Source: Nitrospirota bacterium
GTDB taxonomy: Bacteria; Nitrospirota; Nitrospiria; Nitrospirales; Nitrospiraceae
DNA: 64,000 bases
Assembly (NCBI GenBank): GCA_016219645.1
Contig: JACRLR010000016.1
Coordinates: 248,001 to 312,000 of the forward strand
Reading direction: 5' to 3'
The notes beneath the pieces are model-generated. The model searched no databases. It was not told the DNA's origin and worked only from the letters and a program-made list of their open reading frames with translations. The position numbers were made by a program, and so were the translations under genes. This document shows, one piece after another, positions 9,181 to 51,711 of the stretch; the first letter of the stretch is position 1, and the number at the start of each line of letters is the position of its first letter.

Positions 9181-9742
9181 GCGGATTCTCGCGCTCGATT
9201 ACGGGACCAAGCGGATCGGAGTCGCTCTGAGTGATGAGCTGGGCTGGACAGCACAGCCGCTTGAAACACTCAATCGGCATACGCTGGACCGGGACATTGC
9301 CCATATTGCATCCCTCGTCGGGACACATGAGGTCAGGCAGGTTCTGTTGGGTTTCCCTATGCAATTGGATGGCCGCGAGGGGCCGGCGATCCAGGCGATG
9401 CGAGAGTTCCAGACCCGGTTGGAACAGGGCGTGACCGTTCCCGTGATTCTGTGGGATGAGCGGCTGACGACGAAGGCAGCGGAAGATTTCTTGATCGCTG
9501 CCGATGTCAGCCGGAAAAAGCGCAAGGGTGTGGTGGATCGCATCGCCGCTTCGATCCTACTCCAGAGTTATCTGGCAAGCCTCGAGCCGGCGGTGAAGCG
9601 GGAACCGGAATCATGGGCGGACCAGGATGCAGAGGGAGAAACGGTAGAGCCACCTCATGAAACTACGGATCATTCTCGGGTGTCTGCTGGTCGTGACCGT
9701 CGCAATCGGCGTCGCCGCCTATCAGACGATTCGCTGGGCTGA
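9170..9742 (+). CDS. ruvX: RuvX/YqgF, pre-16S rRNA nuclease family
   Basis: A 190-residue RNase H-fold protein proposed to mature the 16S rRNA 5' end. The fold markers are ALDYGTKRIGVALSDE at the start, LLGFPMQLDG in the middle and VILWDERLTTKAAE toward the end, followed by the catalytic Asp region VVDRIAASILLQ. Residues after about 145 are an Arg/Glu-rich tail not typical of the family; most of it overlaps the first 86 bases of mltG in another frame. The start overlaps the end of alaS. Confidence 0.92.
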
Positions 9743-41311: not shown

Positions 41312-42331
41312 CTATGACCGGCTCAAGAGGTATATCTGTCCAGTCGGTTGCGGGCTGCCGCCCGAGGGCTCAAGGCTGACAGCAAAGTTCTTCGCCTCGT
41401 TGAAGGTCGGCAGCTTTTTAACCAGGAGGCGAGCGGTTTCTCCGGCATTCATGCGAAACGTTCCAATACCCACCGGTTTGTCGTGAACAGCCCATAGTTG
41501 GTAGGTCGTACCAGCGGGGCATTCCGGGAGGTTCACAGAGTAGAGCCAAGCGTTTTGCGTTCGAGAATCGTACAGCAGGAATCCTACGGCTTGCTTCGCC
41601 ACGTCCGATCCGGCGAGAGACACGGCCTTAATGTTGGGACTTCGAAGCAGGGTGGCGAACTCGTCTTGCGGAGTCGCGATAGTGCGACTCCCGTTGCGCT
41701 GGGTCAATTGTGTATGCGCCTCTTCCAGCTCAGTCTCACGCAGGGCCAGTTGTTCCTTGGCCACCGTTATTTCGTGCGTTCTCCGCTGCAGTTCGTCGCG
41801 CAATTCGTCGAGGGTTTTGGCCTGTTCCTTGGCCTCGCGCTGCGCAGCGGTTAGCGCTGCCGACTTGTCCTTGAGCGAGGCTTCGAGTTGGTTGATGTTC
41901 GATGTGTCGATGGAACGTTGTGTCGAAATATTCCACACGAGTAGCCCGACGACTGCCACGACCAGGACTGCTGCGATGCCAAGAGCCCATGGTAGTGACG
42001 ATGATTTGGCAGGGGCCACAGGAGGAAAGAGATGGTCCATCCATTCACCCGGTTCCAAACTCTGCCGGACCGGTTCGACCTTTGGCGGCAGTTCCACTGG
42101 AACCGGCGCCGGGCCTCGCTCAGCCATGATCTTGGATTTGAGGGCCTGTGGGGGCTTGATCGGACTGAGGCTCAGCGGGAGGAGCGCCGCGATGGATTGA
42201 TAGTCCTTCAGCGCAGCATGACAGGCGCTGCAGCCGGAGAGTAAGTGGGCTTCCAGTGCCTGTCGCTCGGTTCGGTCCAGGGCGCCTGCGGCATACAAGG
42301 GAACTGATGCTTCAAGTTCTTCGTGTGTCAT
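41312..42331 (-). CDS. Membrane anti-sigma factor (RskA-like)
   Basis: 339 residues. N-terminal anti-sigma domain (MTHEELEASVPLYAAGALD, and a Cys pair GCSACHAAL), then a membrane helix at about 115-135 (LPWALGIAAVLVVAVVGLLV), a coiled coil of about 80 residues and a periplasmic RskA-type C-terminal domain (GFLLYDSRTQNAWLYSVNLP, PTGQIYLLSR). It should hold the sigma factor encoded directly upstream (4-base overlap) at the membrane until a signal. Its TAG stop is part of a family D end. Confidence 0.88.
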   Translation of the reverse strand: MTHEELEASVPLYAAGALDRTERQALEAHLLSGCSACHAALKDYQSIAALLPLSLSPIKPPQALKSKIMAERGPAPVPVELPPKVEPVRQSLEPGEWMDHLFPPVAPAKSSSLPWALGIAAVLVVAVVGLLVWNISTQRSIDTSNINQLEASLKDKSAALTAAQREAKEQAKTLDELRDELQRRTHEITVAKEQLALRETELEEAHTQLTQRNGSRTIATPQDEFATLLRSPNIKAVSLAGSDVAKQAVGFLLYDSRTQNAWLYSVNLPECPAGTTYQLWAVHDKPVGIGTFRMNAGETARLLVKKLPTFNEAKNFAVSLEPSGGSPQPTGQIYLLSRS

Positions 42332-42930
42332 TGCAGATCACCAGTGTTCCGCCACTGTTGGAGAACCTCCCGGAGTTTGGACATCCCAAGTTTGATTCTG
42401 GTTTTCACAGTACCGAGCGGCTGGTTCAACCGCGACGCGATCTCGGTATGGGAGAGTCCCTCATAGTAGGCCAATTCAATCGCTTGTTGCTGGGCCTGGG
42501 GCAATCCCGCCACAGCCGTTATTACCGCAGTACGGAGTTCTTGATCGGCTTTCGTTTCAAACGGACTCGGGCCCTCATCGGTTAGCTGCGTCGCAGTCCC
42601 GGCTTCCACCGAGCCCGTAGTGTGATGGCCTCGCGCGGTTCTGGCGCGTAGCCGGTCTATGGCACGGCTCTTGGTGAGGGTGATCAGCCATGCAATCGGT
42701 GTTCCCCGCCCGACGTCATAGCGAGAGACCTTTCGCCAGACTTCCAAATAGACATCCTGCAAGAGTTCTGCAGCCTCCTCGTGATTTCCCAAGATCCTCA
42801 CTGCCAGCGTAAACAAGAGCGTGCTCGAATGGTCATAGAGTTGGCTGAAAGCCTGGTGATCACCTTTAGCCACGCGGGCCAGTAGGGTCGGATCAATCGT
42901 AGAGGTGGCTTGCTGTGAGGGTGTATCCAT
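42328..42930 (-). CDS. ECF sigma factor (SigK-like)
   Basis: 200 residues. Region 2: FSQLYDHSSTLLFTLAVRIL and DVYLEVWRKVSRYD. Region 4: AGLPQAQQQAIELAYYEGLS and HTEIASRLNQPLGTVKTRI. It is the partner of the following anti-sigma gene. Its target promoters are unknown. Confidence 0.93.
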   Translation of the reverse strand: MDTPSQQATSTIDPTLLARVAKGDHQAFSQLYDHSSTLLFTLAVRILGNHEEAAELLQDVYLEVWRKVSRYDVGRGTPIAWLITLTKSRAIDRLRARTARGHHTTGSVEAGTATQLTDEGPSPFETKADQELRTAVITAVAGLPQAQQQAIELAYYEGLSHTEIASRLNQPLGTVKTRIKLGMSKLREVLQQWRNTGDLQ

Positions 42931-43213: not shown

Positions 43214-43993
43214 TCAATGCAGCATTGTCAGAAAGAATGGCTCGAGACCGGCATCCCGGAAAGATTGACGGAGCAGGAGAGATGCTGTAGCCGGATCGTA
43301 TTGTGCTACCCGCCAGGGCCCCAGCCGGACGACATAATTTGCTTGCTTCTGTCTGTTGGACGCAGCAAGAAGGTCGGCCATGTGCGGGGATATTGGGAAT
43401 GTGAGCGAGGCGATCTTGGAGTGAGAGGGGAGAGATCGGAGTGGTGCAGGGGCAAGGACATCAACCGTGGCTACCCATCGGAGTAGCAGGGCCAGAAGAT
43501 GCTGGAAGATGGAAAGTCTCGCGAGCGCATGAATAGTCCTGGTGCCAGATTGGACGACCACAGCCCACGCCTGAGTCTTGAGGCTATTCTGTTGTTCCGA
43601 GGCGGATACTGCCGGTAGGCCTTGTCCGAATGATATGTAAGTGCCCTCGCGCAGCACTCCCGTAACTATTCCGATTACAGAGCTTGGCTCGACGATCTCG
43701 CAGCTGCTTTCTGTTGCGTCGCCTCTGGTCAGGAGGGTGCCTCGTGGATCGATAGAGGTAATGCGGTGGCAGACGAGCAGAGAGCCATTCCGAAATACAA
43801 CGATCGAGCCAACGGTCAGAGAGGTCGGAGGACTGAGTTCAAGCCTGTCGCCAGCCTGAATCGTCGGTGTCATGCTCGAAGAGACGATACGAGGGACGAC
43901 CATGTTGCTGAGGAGCGGCAGTTGAAGTTCATCCGGTAAGTCCTGCACAGCAAAACGGCGATCCAAACTGAACGAGGGTAGGAGCTGGATCAT
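43214..43993 (-). CDS. S26 (SipW-like) peptidase domain protein in RiPP-like cassette
   Basis: 259 residues. Residues about 33-115 resemble the Ser/His signal peptidases: nucleophile Ser40 in SSSMTPTIQAGD, VGSIVVFRNG, the His76 motif VCHRITSID that replaces the usual Lys, and LLTRGDA. There is no obvious N-terminal membrane anchor; a hydrophobic stretch (IFQHLLALLLRWV) follows near 170. It overlaps the nucleotidyltransferase gene by 4 bases and is last in the cassette. A protease in this position could remove the leader of the cassette's peptide, but that is inference. Confidence 0.8.
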   Translation of the reverse strand: MIQLLPSFSLDRRFAVQDLPDELQLPLLSNMVVPRIVSSSMTPTIQAGDRLELSPPTSLTVGSIVVFRNGSLLVCHRITSIDPRGTLLTRGDATESSCEIVEPSSVIGIVTGVLREGTYISFGQGLPAVSASEQQNSLKTQAWAVVVQSGTRTIHALARLSIFQHLLALLLRWVATVDVLAPAPLRSLPSHSKIASLTFPISPHMADLLAASNRQKQANYVVRLGPWRVAQYDPATASLLLRQSFRDAGLEPFFLTMLH

Positions 43994-44955
43994 GAGGATG
44001 TCCTGGCTCTTTGGTCAGCGAAGAGACGGATCATCATGCGGACGAGCAAGATGTTTCCCGCTCTTGCGAGTTGCCACCATCTGGCGATGGTGGTCTGCCG
44101 GGGCCGCTTTGCACGGTCACTTCCATACCGATAAGCCAGGAAGAGCGAGGAGGGGAGGAGGGTGTGTCGGAGCCAGGCAAGCCTGCGCCCAGGCGGTTGT
44201 GTGATCCACAATAAAAAATGGCCCAGTTCGGGAAGCGGCTGGGTCGTCACTAATCGTCGGAAAAGGAACTCCAGTGCCTGTTCAGCCATCGTCTCCGGCG
44301 CGAGTTGCTGGATTACGGAAGAAGGAATATCGATGGTCGCATTCGACAATGCCAGTTGGCGAAGGCCGTGGTAGAAAGGAATCTTGAGGTGGTGTCGGAT
44401 CGATTCCTCGACAAGCCGGGGCCAATGGAGCGGTTCCTTCTGGAACAATAACTGGAGATCGGTGAAAAAAGAAGGGGAGAGATGCCCCCGATGCACGACT
44501 GTGTAGGCGATGAGATAGAGCAACAGGTCGTCGGATGCCAGGTGCTTGACCGTTACCTGACCAAGCTGTCTCGTACATGCTCGTTTCCATAGAGCGGCAA
44601 GGCCCTCTTCGTCGAGATACCAGAGCTCCGGGATTAGATCCAGAGCGAGTGCGGAGTTGGACGAACGATAGGCAGGGTTGCCATCGATCTGTTGTGTAAA
44701 TCCTGCCTCAAGCAGCAGCCGGTGAATAGAAGGAAGGTCCCGTTCATGGACCAGCAGATCCACGTCTGAGAGGGGCCTGGTCCCACGCATGCCATAAAGG
44801 CGCGAGAGCAGATCGGCCCCTTTCAGAAGGATGCAGTCTATGCCCTGCTGCTGGAACATCCGGCCGACGAGTTCATACTCATCGAGCAGACGTTTGTTGA
44901 CCTGGCTGACCAGCTGGTAGGCGTCAGCGAGATCGTCGAGGGTCAAGGAGGGCAT
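43990..44955 (-). CDS. Nucleotidyltransferase family protein (NTP_transf_5 type)
   Basis: 321 residues. The nucleotidyltransferase core is LLKGADLLSRLYG then PLSDVDLLVHERDLP, with the metal Asp pair at 64 and 66. This family (PF14907) recurs in peptide-modification clusters, including lasso peptide clusters with HPr-kinase-like genes; its reaction is not established. Overlaps the radical SAM gene upstream by 32 bases and the peptidase gene downstream by 4. Confidence 0.85.
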   Translation of the reverse strand: MPSLTLDDLADAYQLVSQVNKRLLDEYELVGRMFQQQGIDCILLKGADLLSRLYGMRGTRPLSDVDLLVHERDLPSIHRLLLEAGFTQQIDGNPAYRSSNSALALDLIPELWYLDEEGLAALWKRACTRQLGQVTVKHLASDDLLLYLIAYTVVHRGHLSPSFFTDLQLLFQKEPLHWPRLVEESIRHHLKIPFYHGLRQLALSNATIDIPSSVIQQLAPETMAEQALEFLFRRLVTTQPLPELGHFLLWITQPPGRRLAWLRHTLLPSSLFLAYRYGSDRAKRPRQTTIARWWQLARAGNILLVRMMIRLFADQRARTSS

Positions 44956-45982
44956 GGGTGTGATACTCCAATTGTGCCCACTCCTTAAAGTGCGGGAGGC
45001 ACGAACTCATATCTCCTGTTTCGAGCCAAGCATCGCTTCGACCCTGCCGGCAGTGGGGCCGCACCTCACAGGTGGGACATTCGTAACGGTCGCTCGGGTG
45101 CGCTTGGTCGACAGTCTGCTTGAGCAGCTCCCAGCCTTCTTTCACCGTCCCGGTGCGGAGATCATAGCTCGGGATCGGGAAGGCGGTGCAGAGGTTCATT
45201 TTTCCATAGGGAGTGATCGCAAATCGAGTGTGGCCGCAGGCGCATTCGATGAAGGACTCCGGAGTGGAACAGGCTGTTTCCGGCCCGTCATTGCTCCGGT
45301 ATGAGAGCAGCTCACGATCGATCAGAGCCTTGTGCTCGGGAGCAAGGCGATATTGTAATGGCATCCGGTCGCCGGTGATGGTGGTCATGATCTCCAGACA
45401 ATATTGGAATTTCATCCGTAGGGATTCCACGAGGTGTCGACATGCCTGGATTTCATTGTAGTTGATGGTAGTCACAGGCATCCGAACGACGACGGGCAAC
45501 GAGGCAGCGGCAAGATTGAGCAGACCCTGTCGAAACTGGCGATAGGAGCCTGGGACTCCGGTCATCTGCTCATAGACTTCTTCTGTCGCGCCATAAATCG
45601 AGACATTAATTTGACTGACCGCAGCTTCATGGAGGAGATCCGCGAAGGATGCGGTGATTCGGGTGGCGTTGGTCATGAGGTGAGTCATCAATCCCTGCCG
45701 ACGTGTATGTCGAAGAATGTCACCGATGTCGGGGCGTATGCTTGGTTCGCCTCCGGTAAACGTGATGGTGAGCACGCCAAGATCAGAGATCTGGTTGAGG
45801 AGCGTACAAATCTCTAAGGTCGTGAGTTCATGGGGTAGTGCACGATGGGTCGGATTGTAGCAATGGACGCATCGCAGGTTGCAGCCGTAGGTCAACTCGA
45901 AGGTCACCCCTTCCGGCCGGCGTGACGCATTTGCTTTGGTCGAGAGCAATTCATGAAAGGTATCAGCATCCAGGTTCTTCAT
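44924..45982 (-). CDS. Radical SAM/SPASM protein (third of three)
   Basis: 352 residues. SAM-cluster Cys at 34, 38 and 41 in FELTYGCNLRCVHCYNP, GGEP in TFTGGEPSIRPD, and a C-terminal SPASM domain with CACGHTRFAITPYGKMNLC, then CPTCEVRPHC and a last Cys in SSCLPHF. SPASM enzymes usually modify peptides. Overlaps the kinase-like gene by 4 bases and the nucleotidyltransferase gene by 32. Confidence 0.9.
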   Translation of the reverse strand: MKNLDADTFHELLSTKANASRRPEGVTFELTYGCNLRCVHCYNPTHRALPHELTTLEICTLLNQISDLGVLTITFTGGEPSIRPDIGDILRHTRRQGLMTHLMTNATRITASFADLLHEAAVSQINVSIYGATEEVYEQMTGVPGSYRQFRQGLLNLAAASLPVVVRMPVTTINYNEIQACRHLVESLRMKFQYCLEIMTTITGDRMPLQYRLAPEHKALIDRELLSYRSNDGPETACSTPESFIECACGHTRFAITPYGKMNLCTAFPIPSYDLRTGTVKEGWELLKQTVDQAHPSDRYECPTCEVRPHCRQGRSDAWLETGDMSSCLPHFKEWAQLEYHTHALLDPRRSR

Positions 45983-46881
45983 GGAGACACCAGTGCTATC
46001 CCTTCCAGCTGATTCTGGACGTAGTCCACAATATCAGGACATTTCGCAAATATGAGTCGCCGGCAAGGAACATGAGAGACCAGGTCGCTCAAAAACGCCA
46101 GTGTGGATTCCATGGCGGCGCGATCCCAATGGGGAAGAAAACATTGGGGGAGGATCAGTGCCAGCGCGGCAGCGGGAGAGAGCTTGTCGATCTGGTGTTG
46201 TGGCCCATGACTGATGCAAAATAGTTCTGTCAGCGGGCCCGACTCGTTCTTCGCGTAGGCGCCGCTGCCGACCCACGGCGTCCCATGTACGACAAAGTCC
46301 CCTCCGTCCTTGCGGATGATCATGCGCTCATCGCTTAACACACATGCGCCACGGGCATCGAAGAACTCCGACAGCGTGGATTTGCCTGTGCCAGAGGCCC
46401 CAGTGAAGATGTATCCTCCTGTCGGTGAAAGGACCCCTGCCGAGTGGAGGAGAATCCCTCCCTCACGCGCAAGTCTGGTCAATAGACATGCTTCAACAAT
46501 AGGGTTAATGATCTTCATTGGCACCCAGCCCACCGCCGAGCCGGTCTTTTCACCTTTTGTCCACACATCTACATGTGAAAAGTCTTTGGTGATGAGTGCG
46601 AGAGCGTAGGGTTGGTGGGTCTCGGTATCCAGAGACTCTAATAGCGAACCAGCAGCTGTCTCATAGAGACGCCAAAGGCCGTGGCAGGCATCGAATTGGA
46701 GTGGCCCATGTGTCAGGCTCGGGAGTGCCTCGACAACCGTGACGGCGGTCTCGATATCCATCTGTCGGTCGGAATGGTCGAGGAATCCACCGAACGGATG
46801 CATCGGCCAGCTGATGGGCGGATGGTCTTGGGCTTCCGTCAGCCTGATTCTATAACCGGCGATAGAAAGTTCGATTTTCAT
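45979..46881 (-). CDS. HPr kinase-like (HprK-related) protein
   Basis: 300 residues. The P-loop GASGTGKST is at 161-169, preceded by the HprK-type ILLHSAGV (His146), with SDE at 183-185 and HGTPWVGSG further on. It lacks the N-terminal domain of true HprK. Such proteins phosphorylate the C-terminal Ser of paeninodin-type lasso peptide precursors. Here the gene begins 2 bases after the 62-residue peptide gene, whose last residue is Ser, so the peptide is the obvious candidate substrate (inference). Confidence 0.85.
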   Translation of the reverse strand: MKIELSIAGYRIRLTEAQDHPPISWPMHPFGGFLDHSDRQMDIETAVTVVEALPSLTHGPLQFDACHGLWRLYETAAGSLLESLDTETHQPYALALITKDFSHVDVWTKGEKTGSAVGWVPMKIINPIVEACLLTRLAREGGILLHSAGVLSPTGGYIFTGASGTGKSTLSEFFDARGACVLSDERMIIRKDGGDFVVHGTPWVGSGAYAKNESGPLTELFCISHGPQHQIDKLSPAAALALILPQCFLPHWDRAAMESTLAFLSDLVSHVPCRRLIFAKCPDIVDYVQNQLEGIALVSP

Positions 46882-46883
46882 CT

Positions 46884-47072
46884 TTACGAAGGGCGCATGC
46901 CACTGTCACCCACAGCGGCTGCTTTCTTACAGGCTCCTGGTCGGCAGCGGATATCACCGCCGCCTGCCATGGGATTGGAGGCGGTTAAACTGCAGGCGCT
47001 CAAGATGGCCTGCTCCTGGCTCAGCTCGACTCGGAAGAGTTGGGGAGGGCTGTAGGGTTTTTTTTCAGTCAT
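46884..47072 (-). CDS. Candidate RiPP precursor peptide
   Basis: 62 residues with the best ribosome site in the cassette (AAGGAGGT, about 11 bases before the ATG). The leader-like part starts MTEKKPYSPPQLFRVELSQ and continues EQAILSACS; the K-P-Y-x-x-P-x-L pattern resembles leaders bound by PqqD-type recognition domains. The probable core is Gly/Cys-rich (MAGGGDIRCRPGACKKAA) and the peptide ends GDSGMRPS. Cysteines are at 27, 43 and 48; the C-terminal residue is Ser. It sits between a SPASM radical SAM gene (8-base overlap) and the HprK-like gene. I know no named family for it. Confidence 0.75.
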   Translation of the reverse strand: MTEKKPYSPPQLFRVELSQEQAILSACSLTASNPMAGGGDIRCRPGACKKAAAVGDSGMRPS

Positions 47073-48201
47073 GATGTGCCACTACCTCCTTGCTCGTTCT
47101 GCGCAATGGGTGAATCAATGTCTGATGCATCGTCGATTGTGCCAGCGCAAGCGCGACGTCACAATCATAAGGAATTGGAGCTTCGGCTGCGCCACATTCC
47201 CAGCGCGCGTCCGAGGGCTTCTTATCGCAAAATGTATGGATTTCGCAGGCGCGGCAGGGCGACTCGCCCTGGTATCGCATGTTCCAAATCTCCCTGAAGA
47301 GCGTTGCAATGGCATCTGCAAGTCGATGTGTACGGAGCGAGACCCGTCGTTCATATTGCAGGGTGCAGCTGCCGAGTTCCCCCCAGGCATTGATGTGGAT
47401 TGTGTCCGTTCCACAGCCGCAGCGATAGAGTCGGTCTGTGTCGGGAGTCTGTAACATGGTGGACAGACTGCAGGACTCCTCGTCTCCCTCGGATGCCGAT
47501 TGATCCTCGTGCAGCGAAGCCACGTCGTCTGGAGCCATCCGGTAGGTAAGGGACGAGAGCTCGCCGTTGAGTCGAGGCGAGAGCGAGGTCGTGAAGCCGA
47601 AGTTCTGCCCGAATGATTCCACGAATTGTCTGATGGCGGGAATCTCATGCCTATTCCAGTTCATGGCTTTCGTTTTGAGGGTAAAGGGCAGGCCACTCTC
47701 TCTCAACAATTCAAGCCCGCGAGTGAAGGCACGGAAGGAGCCCGGAATTTGTGTGAACCAGTCGAACGGTTCTTCCGTTACGGAGTGGCAGGAAATATCG
47801 ATGGTAAAGGGCGGCATTTCCTGCAGCCGTTCGATGACGGCCTTCGTGAAGAGCGTGCCGTTGGTGTAGAGCTGGAGTAAGAAACCTTTCCGAACGGCGG
47901 CTTCATAAATCTCAAAAAACTGAGGGTGCATGAAAATATCGCCCCCGGTCAGATTGAGCCAGACAATGCCGATCTGCTGCATTTCGTCCAGCAGTCGATG
48001 GATTTCATCGAGCATCAGTTCGCGCGGAAAGAAGTCCTTGTGGTTATAGGGATCCGTGTAGCAATGGCGGCAATGGAGGTTGCAGCGGTAGGTCAGTTCG
48101 AGTTGGGCCTTGATGACACGCTGCTGCGCCGCTGCCTGCTCGTGGACTCGCTGACTGAAGTCGCCATACTGGATGGTTGGAATGGTTCTCTCGTCAGGCA
48201 T
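47065..48201 (-). CDS. Radical SAM/SPASM protein (second of three)
   Basis: 378 residues. SAM-cluster Cys at 40, 44 and 47 in LELTYRCNLHCRHCYTD, GGDIFMHP in place of GGEP, and a full SPASM region: YRCGCGTDTIHINAWGELGS, CTLQYER, then CRACEIHTFC and two more Cys (WECGAAE, YDCDVAL). It lies directly upstream of the peptide gene, overlapping by 8 bases, which makes it the likely core-modifying enzyme. It overlaps the other radical SAM gene by 8 bases. Confidence 0.9.
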   Translation of the reverse strand: MPDERTIPTIQYGDFSQRVHEQAAAQQRVIKAQLELTYRCNLHCRHCYTDPYNHKDFFPRELMLDEIHRLLDEMQQIGIVWLNLTGGDIFMHPQFFEIYEAAVRKGFLLQLYTNGTLFTKAVIERLQEMPPFTIDISCHSVTEEPFDWFTQIPGSFRAFTRGLELLRESGLPFTLKTKAMNWNRHEIPAIRQFVESFGQNFGFTTSLSPRLNGELSSLTYRMAPDDVASLHEDQSASEGDEESCSLSTMLQTPDTDRLYRCGCGTDTIHINAWGELGSCTLQYERRVSLRTHRLADAIATLFREIWNMRYQGESPCRACEIHTFCDKKPSDARWECGAAEAPIPYDCDVALALAQSTMHQTLIHPLRRTSKEVVAHHD

Positions 48202-49105
48202 GGTGCATCGTGGGTTGAATTAGAGCCGGTTCCAGGGGGACTTTCCAGTCGCAGGCGAAGTCCGGTAGGACTTCGAAAAACCCTCTCTGGAATGAGCCGC
48301 TTCGCAAATCGTAACTCTGTCGGCGATTACCGGAGCACAGTTGCAATTGGCCATAGGCATCGATATGGAATCTTTGCATGCCGCTTCGACAGGGCGCCGG
48401 TTCCACCGAATTACGTTGGACAGCATCTCTCTGGAGATCCAGATCCTGTCGATTCAGAGCTGCAAGGTCCTGTTCTAATAGCGCATATTGAAATGGACCT
48501 GCGCCGCCGTCAAGCTCCGGTCTCATTTCTTCGCCGAGCTTGTAGCTCACCGCACCCAGAGACTCGACATACCGCTTGATATCGAGGATCTCTCCCTGAT
48601 TCAGCGTCATTGCCGTGCTCTTGAGAACCAGAGGAATCTGTCGCTCGAGGAGGATCCTGATTGCCAGGAGGCATCGGTCATAGGAGCCCTGTCCCAGGGT
48701 AATCAGTTCGAAGGTCTCGCGGGTTATGCCATGCAGGCTGATTTCAATGCGGTGGGGCCGCAGCGCGGCAAAGCGGTCGGCCTGCGCTTCCGTGATCAGG
48801 GTCCCGTTTGTAAAAACCGTAACCAGGAATCCACAGTGGATGGCATATTCATAGAGTTGAAAAAAGTCCGGGCGGGCAAGCGGTTCCCCTCCTGTCAGGC
48901 AGAGCTCCAACGTCCCGGCCTCGGCCAGCTCATCCATGATGCGGAGGATATCAGCAGTGGGGAGCTCTTGACGGATCGCATCCGGACGATTGAAGCAATC
49001 CGTATAACACATGACACAGTGTAGGTTGCAACGGCAGGTCACCTCCCATTGGCAGGAGTAGGGGAAACGGTCGGGAAGGTGGGTCAGTTTATCCTGCACA
49101 AGCAT
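48194..49105 (-). CDS. Radical SAM protein with shortened SPASM region (first of three)
   Basis: 303 residues. SAM-cluster Cys at 26, 30 and 33 in EVTCRCNLHCVMCYTDC, with extra cysteines at 18, 24 and 37; GGEP in CLTGGEPLARPD. The C terminus has only part of a SPASM/Twitch domain (PCRSGMQRFHIDAYGQLQLC and one later Cys, FACDW) and lacks the final CxxCxxxxxC. It may bind one auxiliary cluster. It follows the PqqD-like gene by 3 bases. Confidence 0.88.
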   Translation of the reverse strand: MLVQDKLTHLPDRFPYSCQWEVTCRCNLHCVMCYTDCFNRPDAIRQELPTADILRIMDELAEAGTLELCLTGGEPLARPDFFQLYEYAIHCGFLVTVFTNGTLITEAQADRFAALRPHRIEISLHGITRETFELITLGQGSYDRCLLAIRILLERQIPLVLKSTAMTLNQGEILDIKRYVESLGAVSYKLGEEMRPELDGGAGPFQYALLEQDLAALNRQDLDLQRDAVQRNSVEPAPCRSGMQRFHIDAYGQLQLCSGNRRQSYDLRSGSFQRGFFEVLPDFACDWKVPLEPALIQPTMHHA

Positions 49106-49108
49106 GAG

Positions 49109-49402
49109 TCATCTCGCCACCTCTTCGACCGCCCGGATGGAGAGGAGGTCGTCAAGCAGCGACGTGAAGTCCTTTGCCAGCTGGTCTGATCCAACCTCAT
49201 ATTCGTTGCAGAAGTCAGCCATGATGGCTTGCGCCGACCGCTGGCCGTCGATTCGGTTCCAGAGTGCTGCCCCGGTTTCGTTCAAGACATAGATGCTATT
49301 GGCTTCGGTTAACGTCCGTCGAATAGGGACCAGTATACATTCGCCTGCGACGTCACGCTGCACATAGTCGGGGTGCTTGGTATAGATCGCAGAGGGATTC
49401 AT
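49109..49402 (-). CDS. PqqD-family peptide-binding protein (RRE)
   Basis: 97 residues of the PqqD fold, which presents precursor peptides to radical SAM enzymes. Characteristic parts: VLNETGAALWNRIDGQRSAQ, IMADFCNEYEVGSDQLAKDF and LLDDLLSI. It opens the tightly coupled part of the cassette. There is no clear ribosome site; a TATCCT -10-like box lies about 10 bases upstream. Confidence 0.88.
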   Translation of the reverse strand: MNPSAIYTKHPDYVQRDVAGECILVPIRRTLTEANSIYVLNETGAALWNRIDGQRSAQAIMADFCNEYEVGSDQLAKDFTSLLDDLLSIRAVEEVAR

Positions 49403-49483
49403 TACTAGTAGAGGATAGCAAATCCTTTGGGGGCCTTCTAGCGCTAATTTCTGGAATGATAAGCTCTGGGCTGGCTCGGGCCG

Positions 49484-50293
49484 TTACGAGCACCATGAAA
49501 GTACGGCATAGCCTTCGTGCCAGGATAAGTAGTCGACTGTAGCGCCTGCGCCACGGAGTTCTGACCTGATCTCTTCTTCATCGACGAAGGCATGTAGGAA
49601 GTGGTTCTGGGAACAGGTGTCGCCAAATTGATATGACTGATTGGCTCCCGGAAGCCTGATGAACCAACAATTGAGTCTGTGAATGAGCCGCTGGGTTCTT
49701 GTGTTCATGTCCCGAGCGATCAAAAAGTTGAGCACAACAAGGCCATGTTCGTTCATGCATGAACGCAGGCTCTGGAGCCAAGCCTGTCGCTGCTGTCGGC
49801 CGGGAATCGAACTGTACATGATGCCGGACATGAACACATAGTCCACTCGCGCGGGGCCGACCGGGATGGCTAGGAAATCCGCTTGGGCAAAGACAGGCTT
49901 CGAGCAGTTGATCGAAGATTGCCGGGAGGCGACGCACAGGCTTTCACGATTGATATCGAGGCCCGCGACGAGAAAACCTCGCTGTGCCAGTGCGATAGAC
50001 TCGCGACCTACGCCGGCTCCAAGCACTAAGACGGTGCCGGACGTCATTTTGTGGCGCGCGAGCACGGCTTCTTCCCAGCCCTCCAATGTCCACTTGTACC
50101 AGGTTTCAGGAAGGCGTTCTGCCACATCCTTGTAACTGTTGTTGTAGTGGTTGCGGATCAGTTCGGTCAGCTCTTTTGGCGACAACAATGCTGGGAGCAT
50201 TCCGGTGAGGAGCTGCTGAACGCGGAACAGGAGCCCTGCCGTCTTCTCGCAGATTCGGACGAGAACGATGATGATATGAGCAACTAGGCGCAC
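49484..50293 (-). CDS. SAM-dependent methyltransferase
   Basis: 269 residues. Class I fold: TVLVLGAGVGRESIALAQ (motif I), GLDINRESL (motif II), VDYVFMSGIMYSSI and the following helices. An amphipathic, hydrophobic N-terminal helix (LVAHIIIVLVRICEKTAG) suggests membrane contact. GTG start with AAGGAGAT seven bases upstream. It lies 81 bases upstream of the PqqD-like gene on the same strand, so it may belong to the RiPP-like cassette, though it could be independent. Confidence 0.8.
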   Translation of the reverse strand: MRLVAHIIIVLVRICEKTAGLLFRVQQLLTGMLPALLSPKELTELIRNHYNNSYKDVAERLPETWYKWTLEGWEEAVLARHKMTSGTVLVLGAGVGRESIALAQRGFLVAGLDINRESLCVASRQSSINCSKPVFAQADFLAIPVGPARVDYVFMSGIMYSSIPGRQQRQAWLQSLRSCMNEHGLVVLNFLIARDMNTRTQRLIHRLNCWFIRLPGANQSYQFGDTCSQNHFLHAFVDEEEIRSELRGAGATVDYLSWHEGYAVLSWCS

Positions 50294-50619: not shown

Positions 50620-51711
50620 TCAGATTTTGCTGAGTTGCTGCGCGATGACGGCTGCCGCTTCGGCTCCACCGGTTGGGGAAGGCGCCGGCAACGAGGGCAC
50701 TGACGAGGCCCAGACTTGCTGTAAGCCAGGCTCCCACCGGCCCCGCACAAAGTCGGCGGCCGACAATTCGACGCCGCGTCCGTAGCGATGCAGATAATCA
50801 ACCAACGGCGGTTCGTCGGCAAAATTGTATCGCCGGACGTACAGGAGGGGTTGTTGAAGTTCGACCGCCTCTGCAATTGTGCCGTAGCCCGGTTTTGTCA
50901 TGATGATATCGACAGAAGCCATCAATGTTTTGAATGAGAAAGGGAGAGAGTGAGTCGAGACGAACCTGGTGCTGCCTGGTAGTATGGGCCCATCGAACAG
51001 AAACCGATAGTTTGTGAGTTGCTCGAGATTGGCAAATGGGAGGGAGGTCATCGGAATACCGCCGAATCCGACAAGCACGGTACGTTCGCCCGGAGACAGA
51101 GCCAGCACTGCGGCGAGCTGTCTGTGAGCCGGCGCAGCCGGCTCGGCGATGGGGCTGATGTCGTTGACGCGCTGAAAGACATCGATCTTCGGGGCAGGGA
51201 TGATGCGCAGGGCCACATCGGCTTGCGCGTAACTCTGACGAATTGAATGAAGGAGCCCCGCTTTGTCGATGGAAGGAGGGGCAACGAAATCCGACAGAAT
51301 CAGATCCCAGGTGAAGCTCGCCAAGGCGACGGTGGGAATCGCTGCGGCCTTTCCAGCCGCGAGGGCCAGATAGGGCGTATCGGCAAGAACCACATCAGGC
51401 CGGGCGGCCTTCATCGCGGTCACTTCCTGCTGAAGCCGGTCGTTCCATGTTCCGTGGAATCGCTCGTGCTCCCGCCAGGTCGCTTCCACGTCGATGGTCA
51501 GAGGACCATCCTGAATGCAGCCGATGTCTTGCTGGACGGCGCTCAGTTCCCAGGGTATCACGAGACGATTTTTGAAGAACGAGGCAGGGACGGTGGTTCG
51601 CAAGATGGCATGCAGACCGGGAAGGAGTCGCCCGAGGGCATTAAGGACCGGCACGACCTGCGCGGCATGTCCAAACCCATGTGCAGAAATCGCAGCCCAG
51701 ATCAGTGGCAA
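50620..51711 (-). CDS. Glycosyltransferase (MurG/UGT-like GT-B fold)
   Basis: 363 residues. Opens with AAISAHGFGHAAQVVPVLNA, the substrate-side start of MurG/UGT-type enzymes, and has FGGIP and IIMTKPGYGTIAEAVELQQP, the nucleotide-sugar motif. The sugar and acceptor are unknown. TTG start without a clear ribosome site. It is 326 bases upstream of the methyltransferase, beyond a repeat, so membership of the RiPP-like cassette is uncertain. Confidence 0.8.
   Translation of the reverse strand: MPLIWAAISAHGFGHAAQVVPVLNALGRLLPGLHAILRTTVPASFFKNRLVIPWELSAVQQDIGCIQDGPLTIDVEATWREHERFHGTWNDRLQQEVTAMKAARPDVVLADTPYLALAAGKAAAIPTVALASFTWDLILSDFVAPPSIDKAGLLHSIRQSYAQADVALRIIPAPKIDVFQRVNDISPIAEPAAPAHRQLAAVLALSPGERTVLVGFGGIPMTSLPFANLEQLTNYRFLFDGPILPGSTRFVSTHSLPFSFKTLMASVDIIMTKPGYGTIAEAVELQQPLLYVRRYNFADEPPLVDYLHRYGRGVELSAADFVRGRWEPGLQQVWASSVPSLPAPSPTGGAEAAAVIAQQLSKI

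Follow-up and report, generated by a model that had tools for sequence, protein, structure and literature searches.

What does a compact run of genes make when it encodes three radical S-adenosylmethionine (SAM) enzymes, a PqqD-like protein, an HprK-like kinase, a nucleotidyltransferase and an S26 peptidase around a peptide of only 62 residues? Such a run lies on the minus strand of a 64,000-nucleotide stretch of a Nitrospirota genome (family Nitrospiraceae; assembly GCA_016219645.1, contig JACRLR010000016.1, positions 248,001 to 312,000), hereafter the window, where an earlier note had taken eight genes for a possible new system for a ribosomally synthesized and post-translationally modified peptide (RiPP). 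In this work, we combine homologue searches, selection on the peptide gene, comparison of loci and structural models, and conclude that an island of genes at 43214-50293 is probably a radical-SAM RiPP cassette in which the kinase would phosphorylate the C-terminal serine of the peptide, Ser62, and an S26B-type protease would remove its leader. The product is very probably a small modified peptide.

The gene for the peptide, the presumed precursor (46884-47072), is preceded by a AAGGAGGT ribosome-binding site 11 nt from its ATG, the canonical site that had been reported before. Searching 296 genomes of the phylum, we found homologues within the window's family with E values down to 2e-35, present as 1 to 3 tandem copies, and recovered 44 distinct full-length peptides among Nitrospira relatives. 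All 44 have Y7, P10, Q21, A22, L24, C27, C43, C48, D56 and S62. The precursors share a leader (about residues 1-27) with the consensus [YW]xxPx..EQA[IV]LxxC, followed by a Cys-containing core that varies in length and sequence; the window's peptide closes with a tail, DSGxRxS, that ends at Ser62. The earlier note had named the lack of a conserved peptide at this position in relatives as what would refute its proposal, and had called for an alignment of homologues; the peptide is there, and the conserved leader and variable core that the alignment recovers support the RiPP reading of the cassette around it.

Between the window and its closest homologue (locus L032), dS is 1.01 and dN is 0.032 (roughly 23.5 synonymous and 4.5 non-synonymous changes), and the ratio of non-synonymous to synonymous rates (dN/dS) of the peptide is about 0.03 to 0.08. 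Because its homologues are conserved and this ratio is low, the 62-residue peptide is a genuine gene under strong purifying selection. None of eight precursors tested exceeded the cut-off of an NCBIfam model. At locus L094 (genome G300), one of two precursor copies (9497-9727) has lost its C-terminal part and ends ...LQVPPL, and an intact copy comes after it. In genome G085, a lone family precursor with a longer N terminus and a terminal Ser (L037, 8632-8949 on contig C9) lies near a two-component system, apart from the cassette of that genome, which sits on contig C23.

The end of the precursor carries the second line of evidence. Searching with a profile of the leader only, so that the query held no information on the C terminus, we found Ser as the last residue in 44 of 45 distinct precursors within the family and in 44 of 50 outside it; the other outsiders end in Thr (two) or in Cys, Tyr, Pro or Leu (one each), and the Leu-ending one is a lasso precursor. 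As a check, we searched a separate leader-only alignment, made from 28 sequences, against two held-out genome sets, 285 from the Omnitrophota phylum and 297 from the Acidobacteriota phylum. Ser ends 27 of 32 distinct precursors in the former, with Thr in 3 more, and all 27 in the latter, which pooled gives 54/59 for Ser and 57/59 for Ser or Thr. Within the same cores, the last residue aside, Ser accounts for 11.4% of positions, and the penultimate residue is variable, being mostly Gly, Ala or Ser. Within the family, Ser62 is invariant in all 44 full-length precursors, alongside a kinase whose motif reads His-Lys-Asp-Glu, the cross-phylum consensus being Asp-Asp. The almost invariant C-terminal Ser, on which the earlier note had not remarked, is a likely target of the HprK-like kinase.

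In transcription order, the island encodes a class I SAM-dependent methyltransferase (49484-50293, GTG start), a 97-residue PqqD-family RiPP recognition element (RRE; 49109-49402), radical SAM enzyme 1 (rSAM1, 303 residues; 48194-49105), rSAM2 (378 residues; 47065-48201), the precursor, the HprK-like kinase (300 residues; 45979-46881), rSAM3 (352 residues; 44924-45982), the NTP_transf_5 nucleotidyltransferase (43990-44955) and the S26B protease (43214-43993), all on the minus strand. The eight open reading frames from PqqD to S26 (43214-49402) lie at exactly the coordinates given earlier, and their ends do overlap or fall within 3 bases of each other, as had been claimed: gaps of 3 and 2 bases separate PqqD from rSAM1 and the precursor from the kinase, rSAM1 overlaps rSAM2 and rSAM2 overlaps the precursor by 8 bases each, and overlaps of 4 bases join the kinase to rSAM3 and the nucleotidyltransferase to the protease. 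The overlap between rSAM3 and the nucleotidyltransferase is 32 bases, given a start of the latter at 44955. The same gene order is found in about 38 loci of the Nitrospira family, and this kept order, together with the selection on the peptide, puts the cassette far beyond chance.

The eight genes hold as a unit, but their extent needed revision, as the methyltransferase gene 81 bp upstream had been overlooked. It stands beside nearly all cassettes. Judged by an adjacent rSAM2, the cassette is present in 40 of 147 family genomes and 10 of 22 genera; in 16 relatives free of it, a glycosyltransferase and a sigma gene (50620-51711 and 42328-42930 in the window) lie 141-614 bp apart and the methyltransferase is missing. 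The methyltransferase is therefore part of the island, which spans 43214-50293 and sits in a fixed chromosomal slot. Synteny in nearly all loci at first supported the glycosyltransferase upstream, and the extracytoplasmic function (ECF) sigma factor and an anti-sigma factor (41312-42331) downstream, as further parts of the cassette; as they are adjacent without it in the same 16 relatives, they are ancestral neighbours.

One empty site (L112, 2455-2844, genome G321) retains a degenerate S26 fragment between the glycosyltransferase and sigma genes, evidence for at least one loss of the cassette. At three other loci (L109, L110 and L111 in genomes G320, G214 and G060), the slot between the same two neighbours is occupied by a lasso cluster with genes for an Asn-synthetase-like cyclase, a PqqD, an HprK-like protein, an NTP_transf_5 protein and a PRMT-like methyltransferase. 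Divergent family cassettes with additional methyltransferases and PqqD copies occur at L096, L097 and L098 (G301, G302 and G310), the last of which also has a tetratricopeptide-repeat protein and a protein with an acetyltransferase domain nearby.

Pfam cut-offs are exceeded by the PqqD protein (PF05402, E value 4.9e-15), the three radical SAM proteins (PF04055), the nucleotidyltransferase (PF14907, E value 7.8e-29, with K45, G46, D64 and D66 conserved) and the methyltransferase (Methyltransf_25). rSAM1, which has a truncated SPASM-like C terminus, conserves C26/C30/C33 plus a shortened set of C37, C69, C239, C257 and C285, and rSAM2 (C40/C44/C47) and rSAM3 (C34/C38/C41) each conserve eight more Cys, the full SPASM-type set. 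An rSAM2-type profile matched SkfB, PqqE and 5wgg in the PDB, and the solved chains nearest to the PqqD protein are the lasso PqqD chaperone 9x90, TbiB1 and the PqqD protein 9x8z, all of them weak matches. The island thus holds what broadly characterizes a radical SAM (SPASM) RiPP system, namely CxxxCxxC enzymes with SPASM-type Cys, a PqqD/RRE and a short precursor whose leader is conserved and whose core varies.

By sequence, the kinase matches HprK_rel_B weakly (32.9 bits, below the cut-off), but its family conserves H146, the P-loop K167, D184 and E185, with an LSDDR consensus across phyla. Its AlphaFold model (mean predicted local distance difference test score 92.7) has the HprK/P-HPr complex 1kkl as top Foldseek match, and VIA-align ranks phosphoenolpyruvate (PEP) carboxykinases highest (Z about 14). 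The 50 matches listed by VIA-align include no HprK/P chain, which is no argument against HprK; PEP carboxykinases and HprK have a common P-loop kinase fold. The modelled fold supports membership in the HprK/PEP carboxykinase superfamily, and the sequence and motif support HprK. The S26 protein likewise matches sigpep_I_arch (TIGR02228) weakly (37.2 bits, below the cut-off), and its S40, H76 and D92 are invariant across phyla (17 proteins). Its structural model is good in the catalytic core only, which is similar to SipA and to the LexA-type S24/S26 fold. The families proposed earlier hold: Pfam confirms PqqD, the three radical SAM proteins and NTP_transf_5, and catalytic residues and fold support the kinase and the protease. 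By analogy with characterized systems, this archaeal-type signal peptidase-like protein is very probably the leader peptidase, and the nucleotidyltransferase is a candidate for a second tailoring step on a phosphoserine.

From these parts, we propose that PqqD would bind the precursor by its YxxPxL leader and present it to the three radical SAM enzymes, whose action would leave linkages or other radical modifications in the Cys-containing core. Phosphorylation of Ser62 would fall to the HprK-like kinase; in lasso peptides, PadeK phosphorylates paeninodin at its C-terminal Ser, and PsmK does so with pseudomycoidin, in which PsmN subsequently hexosylates that Ser (PMC9266682). NTP_transf_5 could act on the Ser62 phosphate as is thought for PsmN, and the methyltransferase might contribute a further change. 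The S26B protease, probably assisted by PqqD, would remove the leader. A precedent is found in the linear polyphosphorylated peptides (LPPs), in which the S26B peptidase LppS removes the leader with the help of its RRE and an HprK-like kinase phosphorylates Ser (Popov et al. 2026, PMC13381572). When EQAI is aligned with the Q-x-I element of LPP leaders, the predicted cut falls near Cys27.

Several observations weigh against this reading. The kinase motif of the Nitrospira family has Asp-Glu instead of Asp-Asp. In LPPs, LppK targets the third core residue (Ser3) and not the C terminus, and LppN had no visible effect in a heterologous test (PMC13381572). The lasso precursors at L109-L111 end in Leu despite HprK-like and NTP_transf_5 genes, so the presence of HprK alone does not predict a terminal Ser. 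In the held-out set, with its short flanks, HprK as a predictor gave a trend only: Ser ends 34 of 35 precursors with an HprK gene within 1.5 kb and 20 of 24 without (Fisher p 0.15). Binomial statistics on the terminal Ser take no account of phylogeny, and the held-out precursors include at least one (L258) that is a duplicate of one found before (L139). Furthermore, no exporter is encoded within the island.

Some of these points would be accommodated if the island makes a radical-SAM RiPP whose kinase acts on an internal Ser or Thr, the terminal Ser being kept for some other reason, such as recognition by a processing enzyme or C-terminal esterification. We regard this as unlikely, though worth weighing: LppK modifies core Ser3 (PMC13381572), lasso clusters that occupy this slot elsewhere pair HprK-like and NTP_transf_5 genes with precursors that lack a terminal Ser, and a methyltransferase lies within the island itself. 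Yet across more than ten phyla the terminal Ser hardly ever changes, whereas the cores around internal Ser residues cannot be aligned, and most held-out exceptions end in Thr, likewise a hydroxyl residue.

A different proposal is that the peptide is no secreted product and instead, like PqqA and MftA, provides the scaffold of a small redox cofactor, with the kinase and nucleotidyltransferase building a nucleotide-linked cofactor from its C terminus. PqqD together with SPASM enzymes is the hallmark of pyrroloquinoline quinone and mycofactocin, and both the missing exporter and the fixed slot across the family would suit such a role. However, the strong variation of the cores in length and sequence and the 1-3 divergent copies per cassette (dozens in some Omnitrophota) are unlike cofactor precursors, and presence in 40 of 147 genomes is patchy, which makes this proposal very improbable.

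The SynChlorMet cassette (ScmA-F; TIGR04248-TIGR04251) also joins a PqqD-like protein, an HprK-like protein and two radical SAM/SPASM proteins beside short precursors, but that the island belongs to it, even as a variant, is scarcely credible, since the island's weak NCBIfam matches fall far below the cut-offs (ScmC 25.9 of 125, ScmD 19.5 of 100, ScmE 87.5 of 400 and ScmF 79.7 of 400 bits), the loci that do match ScmC have Cys- and Gly-rich repetitive precursors without a terminal Ser, and the radical SAM enzymes of these loci fall into a clade of their own in a quick FastTree; we therefore reject membership. A lasso peptide is rejected as well, because no Asn-synthetase-like cyclase or B2 protease is found among the island proteins. 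Their absence had been noted and called odd; it is real, but not odd in a radical-SAM RiPP cassette in which S26B is very probably the leader protease.

The reading that we prefer, a radical-SAM cassette with phosphorylation at Ser62, borrows from several known systems and coincides with none. Like LPPs, the island has a discrete RRE, an HprK-like kinase, a nucleotidyltransferase and an archaeal-type S26B peptidase with a Ser/His/Asp triad, in which S40/H76/D92 match the roles of S29/H68/D93 of LppS, and the leaders share YxxPx and a Q-x-I element ahead of the presumed cleavage site (PMC13381572). Unlike LPPs, it has three radical SAM enzymes and a methyltransferase, whereas an MsbA-like exporter belongs to the LPP core set only. 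Its leader, YSPPQLFRVELSQEQAILSACS, departs from the LPP consensus YxxPxVLxHQxIxFETxxS in the FET element and in spacing, ending EQAILSAC where LPPs have HQxIxFET, and its conserved Ser is C-terminal instead of at core position 3. LPPs, moreover, are reported as restricted to Bacillota (PMC13381572). With the lasso peptides paeninodin and pseudomycoidin, the island shares a [Y/W]xxP-type leader, a discrete PqqD-like RRE, an HprK-like kinase, a nucleotidyltransferase and a conserved C-terminal Ser, which in the lasso case is phosphorylated by the kinase (PMC9266682), but radical SAM enzymes and S26B stand in place of the cyclase and the B2 protease.

Among solved structures, the radical SAM/SPASM enzymes come closest to sactipeptide and ranthipeptide maturases, SkfB (6efn) and CteB (5wgg). 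Cys-containing cores are a further likeness to these systems; a discrete PqqD is a difference, and the kinase, the nucleotidyltransferase and the S26B protease are not known from classical examples. The island is thus neither SynChlorMet, LPP nor lasso; its parts are known, their combination apparently undescribed. NCBIfam names no system that unites radical SAM enzymes with the kinase, the nucleotidyltransferase, S26B and a terminal Ser, and we found no paper on this combination among open-licence papers, a coverage that makes this weak evidence.

Beyond the family, enzymes like rSAM2 lie beside a PqqD and a short precursor, usually with HprK-like and S26 proteins too, in more than ten phyla. 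The taxa include Syntrophaceae, Desulfobacterales, Omnitrophota, Anaerolineaceae, Acidobacteria, Planctomycetota, Aminicenantes, Kiritimatiellia, Verrucomicrobia, Myxococcales, Chlorobi and Methanomicrobiales. In the same quick FastTree, read without branch support values, the three radical SAM enzymes of the window cluster together beside the single enzymes of simpler cassettes, in which relatives of rSAM2 stand alone, and one deltaproteobacterial locus (L146) has all three types. The tree position and this locus suggest that the three enzymes, which look like an old triplication, arose from a one-enzyme ancestor. Their number had seemed odd, one being usual; the count was right, and duplication from such an ancestor would explain it.

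Three small genomes of the Omnitrophota phylum (G389, G580 and G625, 1.3-1.8 Mb) carry 14, at least 28 and at least 29 precursors that match the leader, respectively, scattered over many contigs. As for the wider picture, we lean towards viewing the cassette as one elaborate offshoot of a large and undescribed RiPP class that spans phyla, whose peptides would be modified by radical SAM enzymes, phosphorylated and decorated at a terminal Ser and released by S26B.

If this is true, the cassette joins the core chemistry of radical SAM enzymes with peptide phosphorylation of the lasso and LPP type, two RiPP logics that have been separate until now. The signal-peptidase-like leader protease of Bacillota LPPs would then extend to Nitrospira, Acidobacteriota, Omnitrophota, deltaproteobacterial lineages and a methanogen, among many phyla, and a leader of the form [YW]xxPx..EEA[VI]LxxC together with a terminal Ser would provide a simple rule for finding further precursors.

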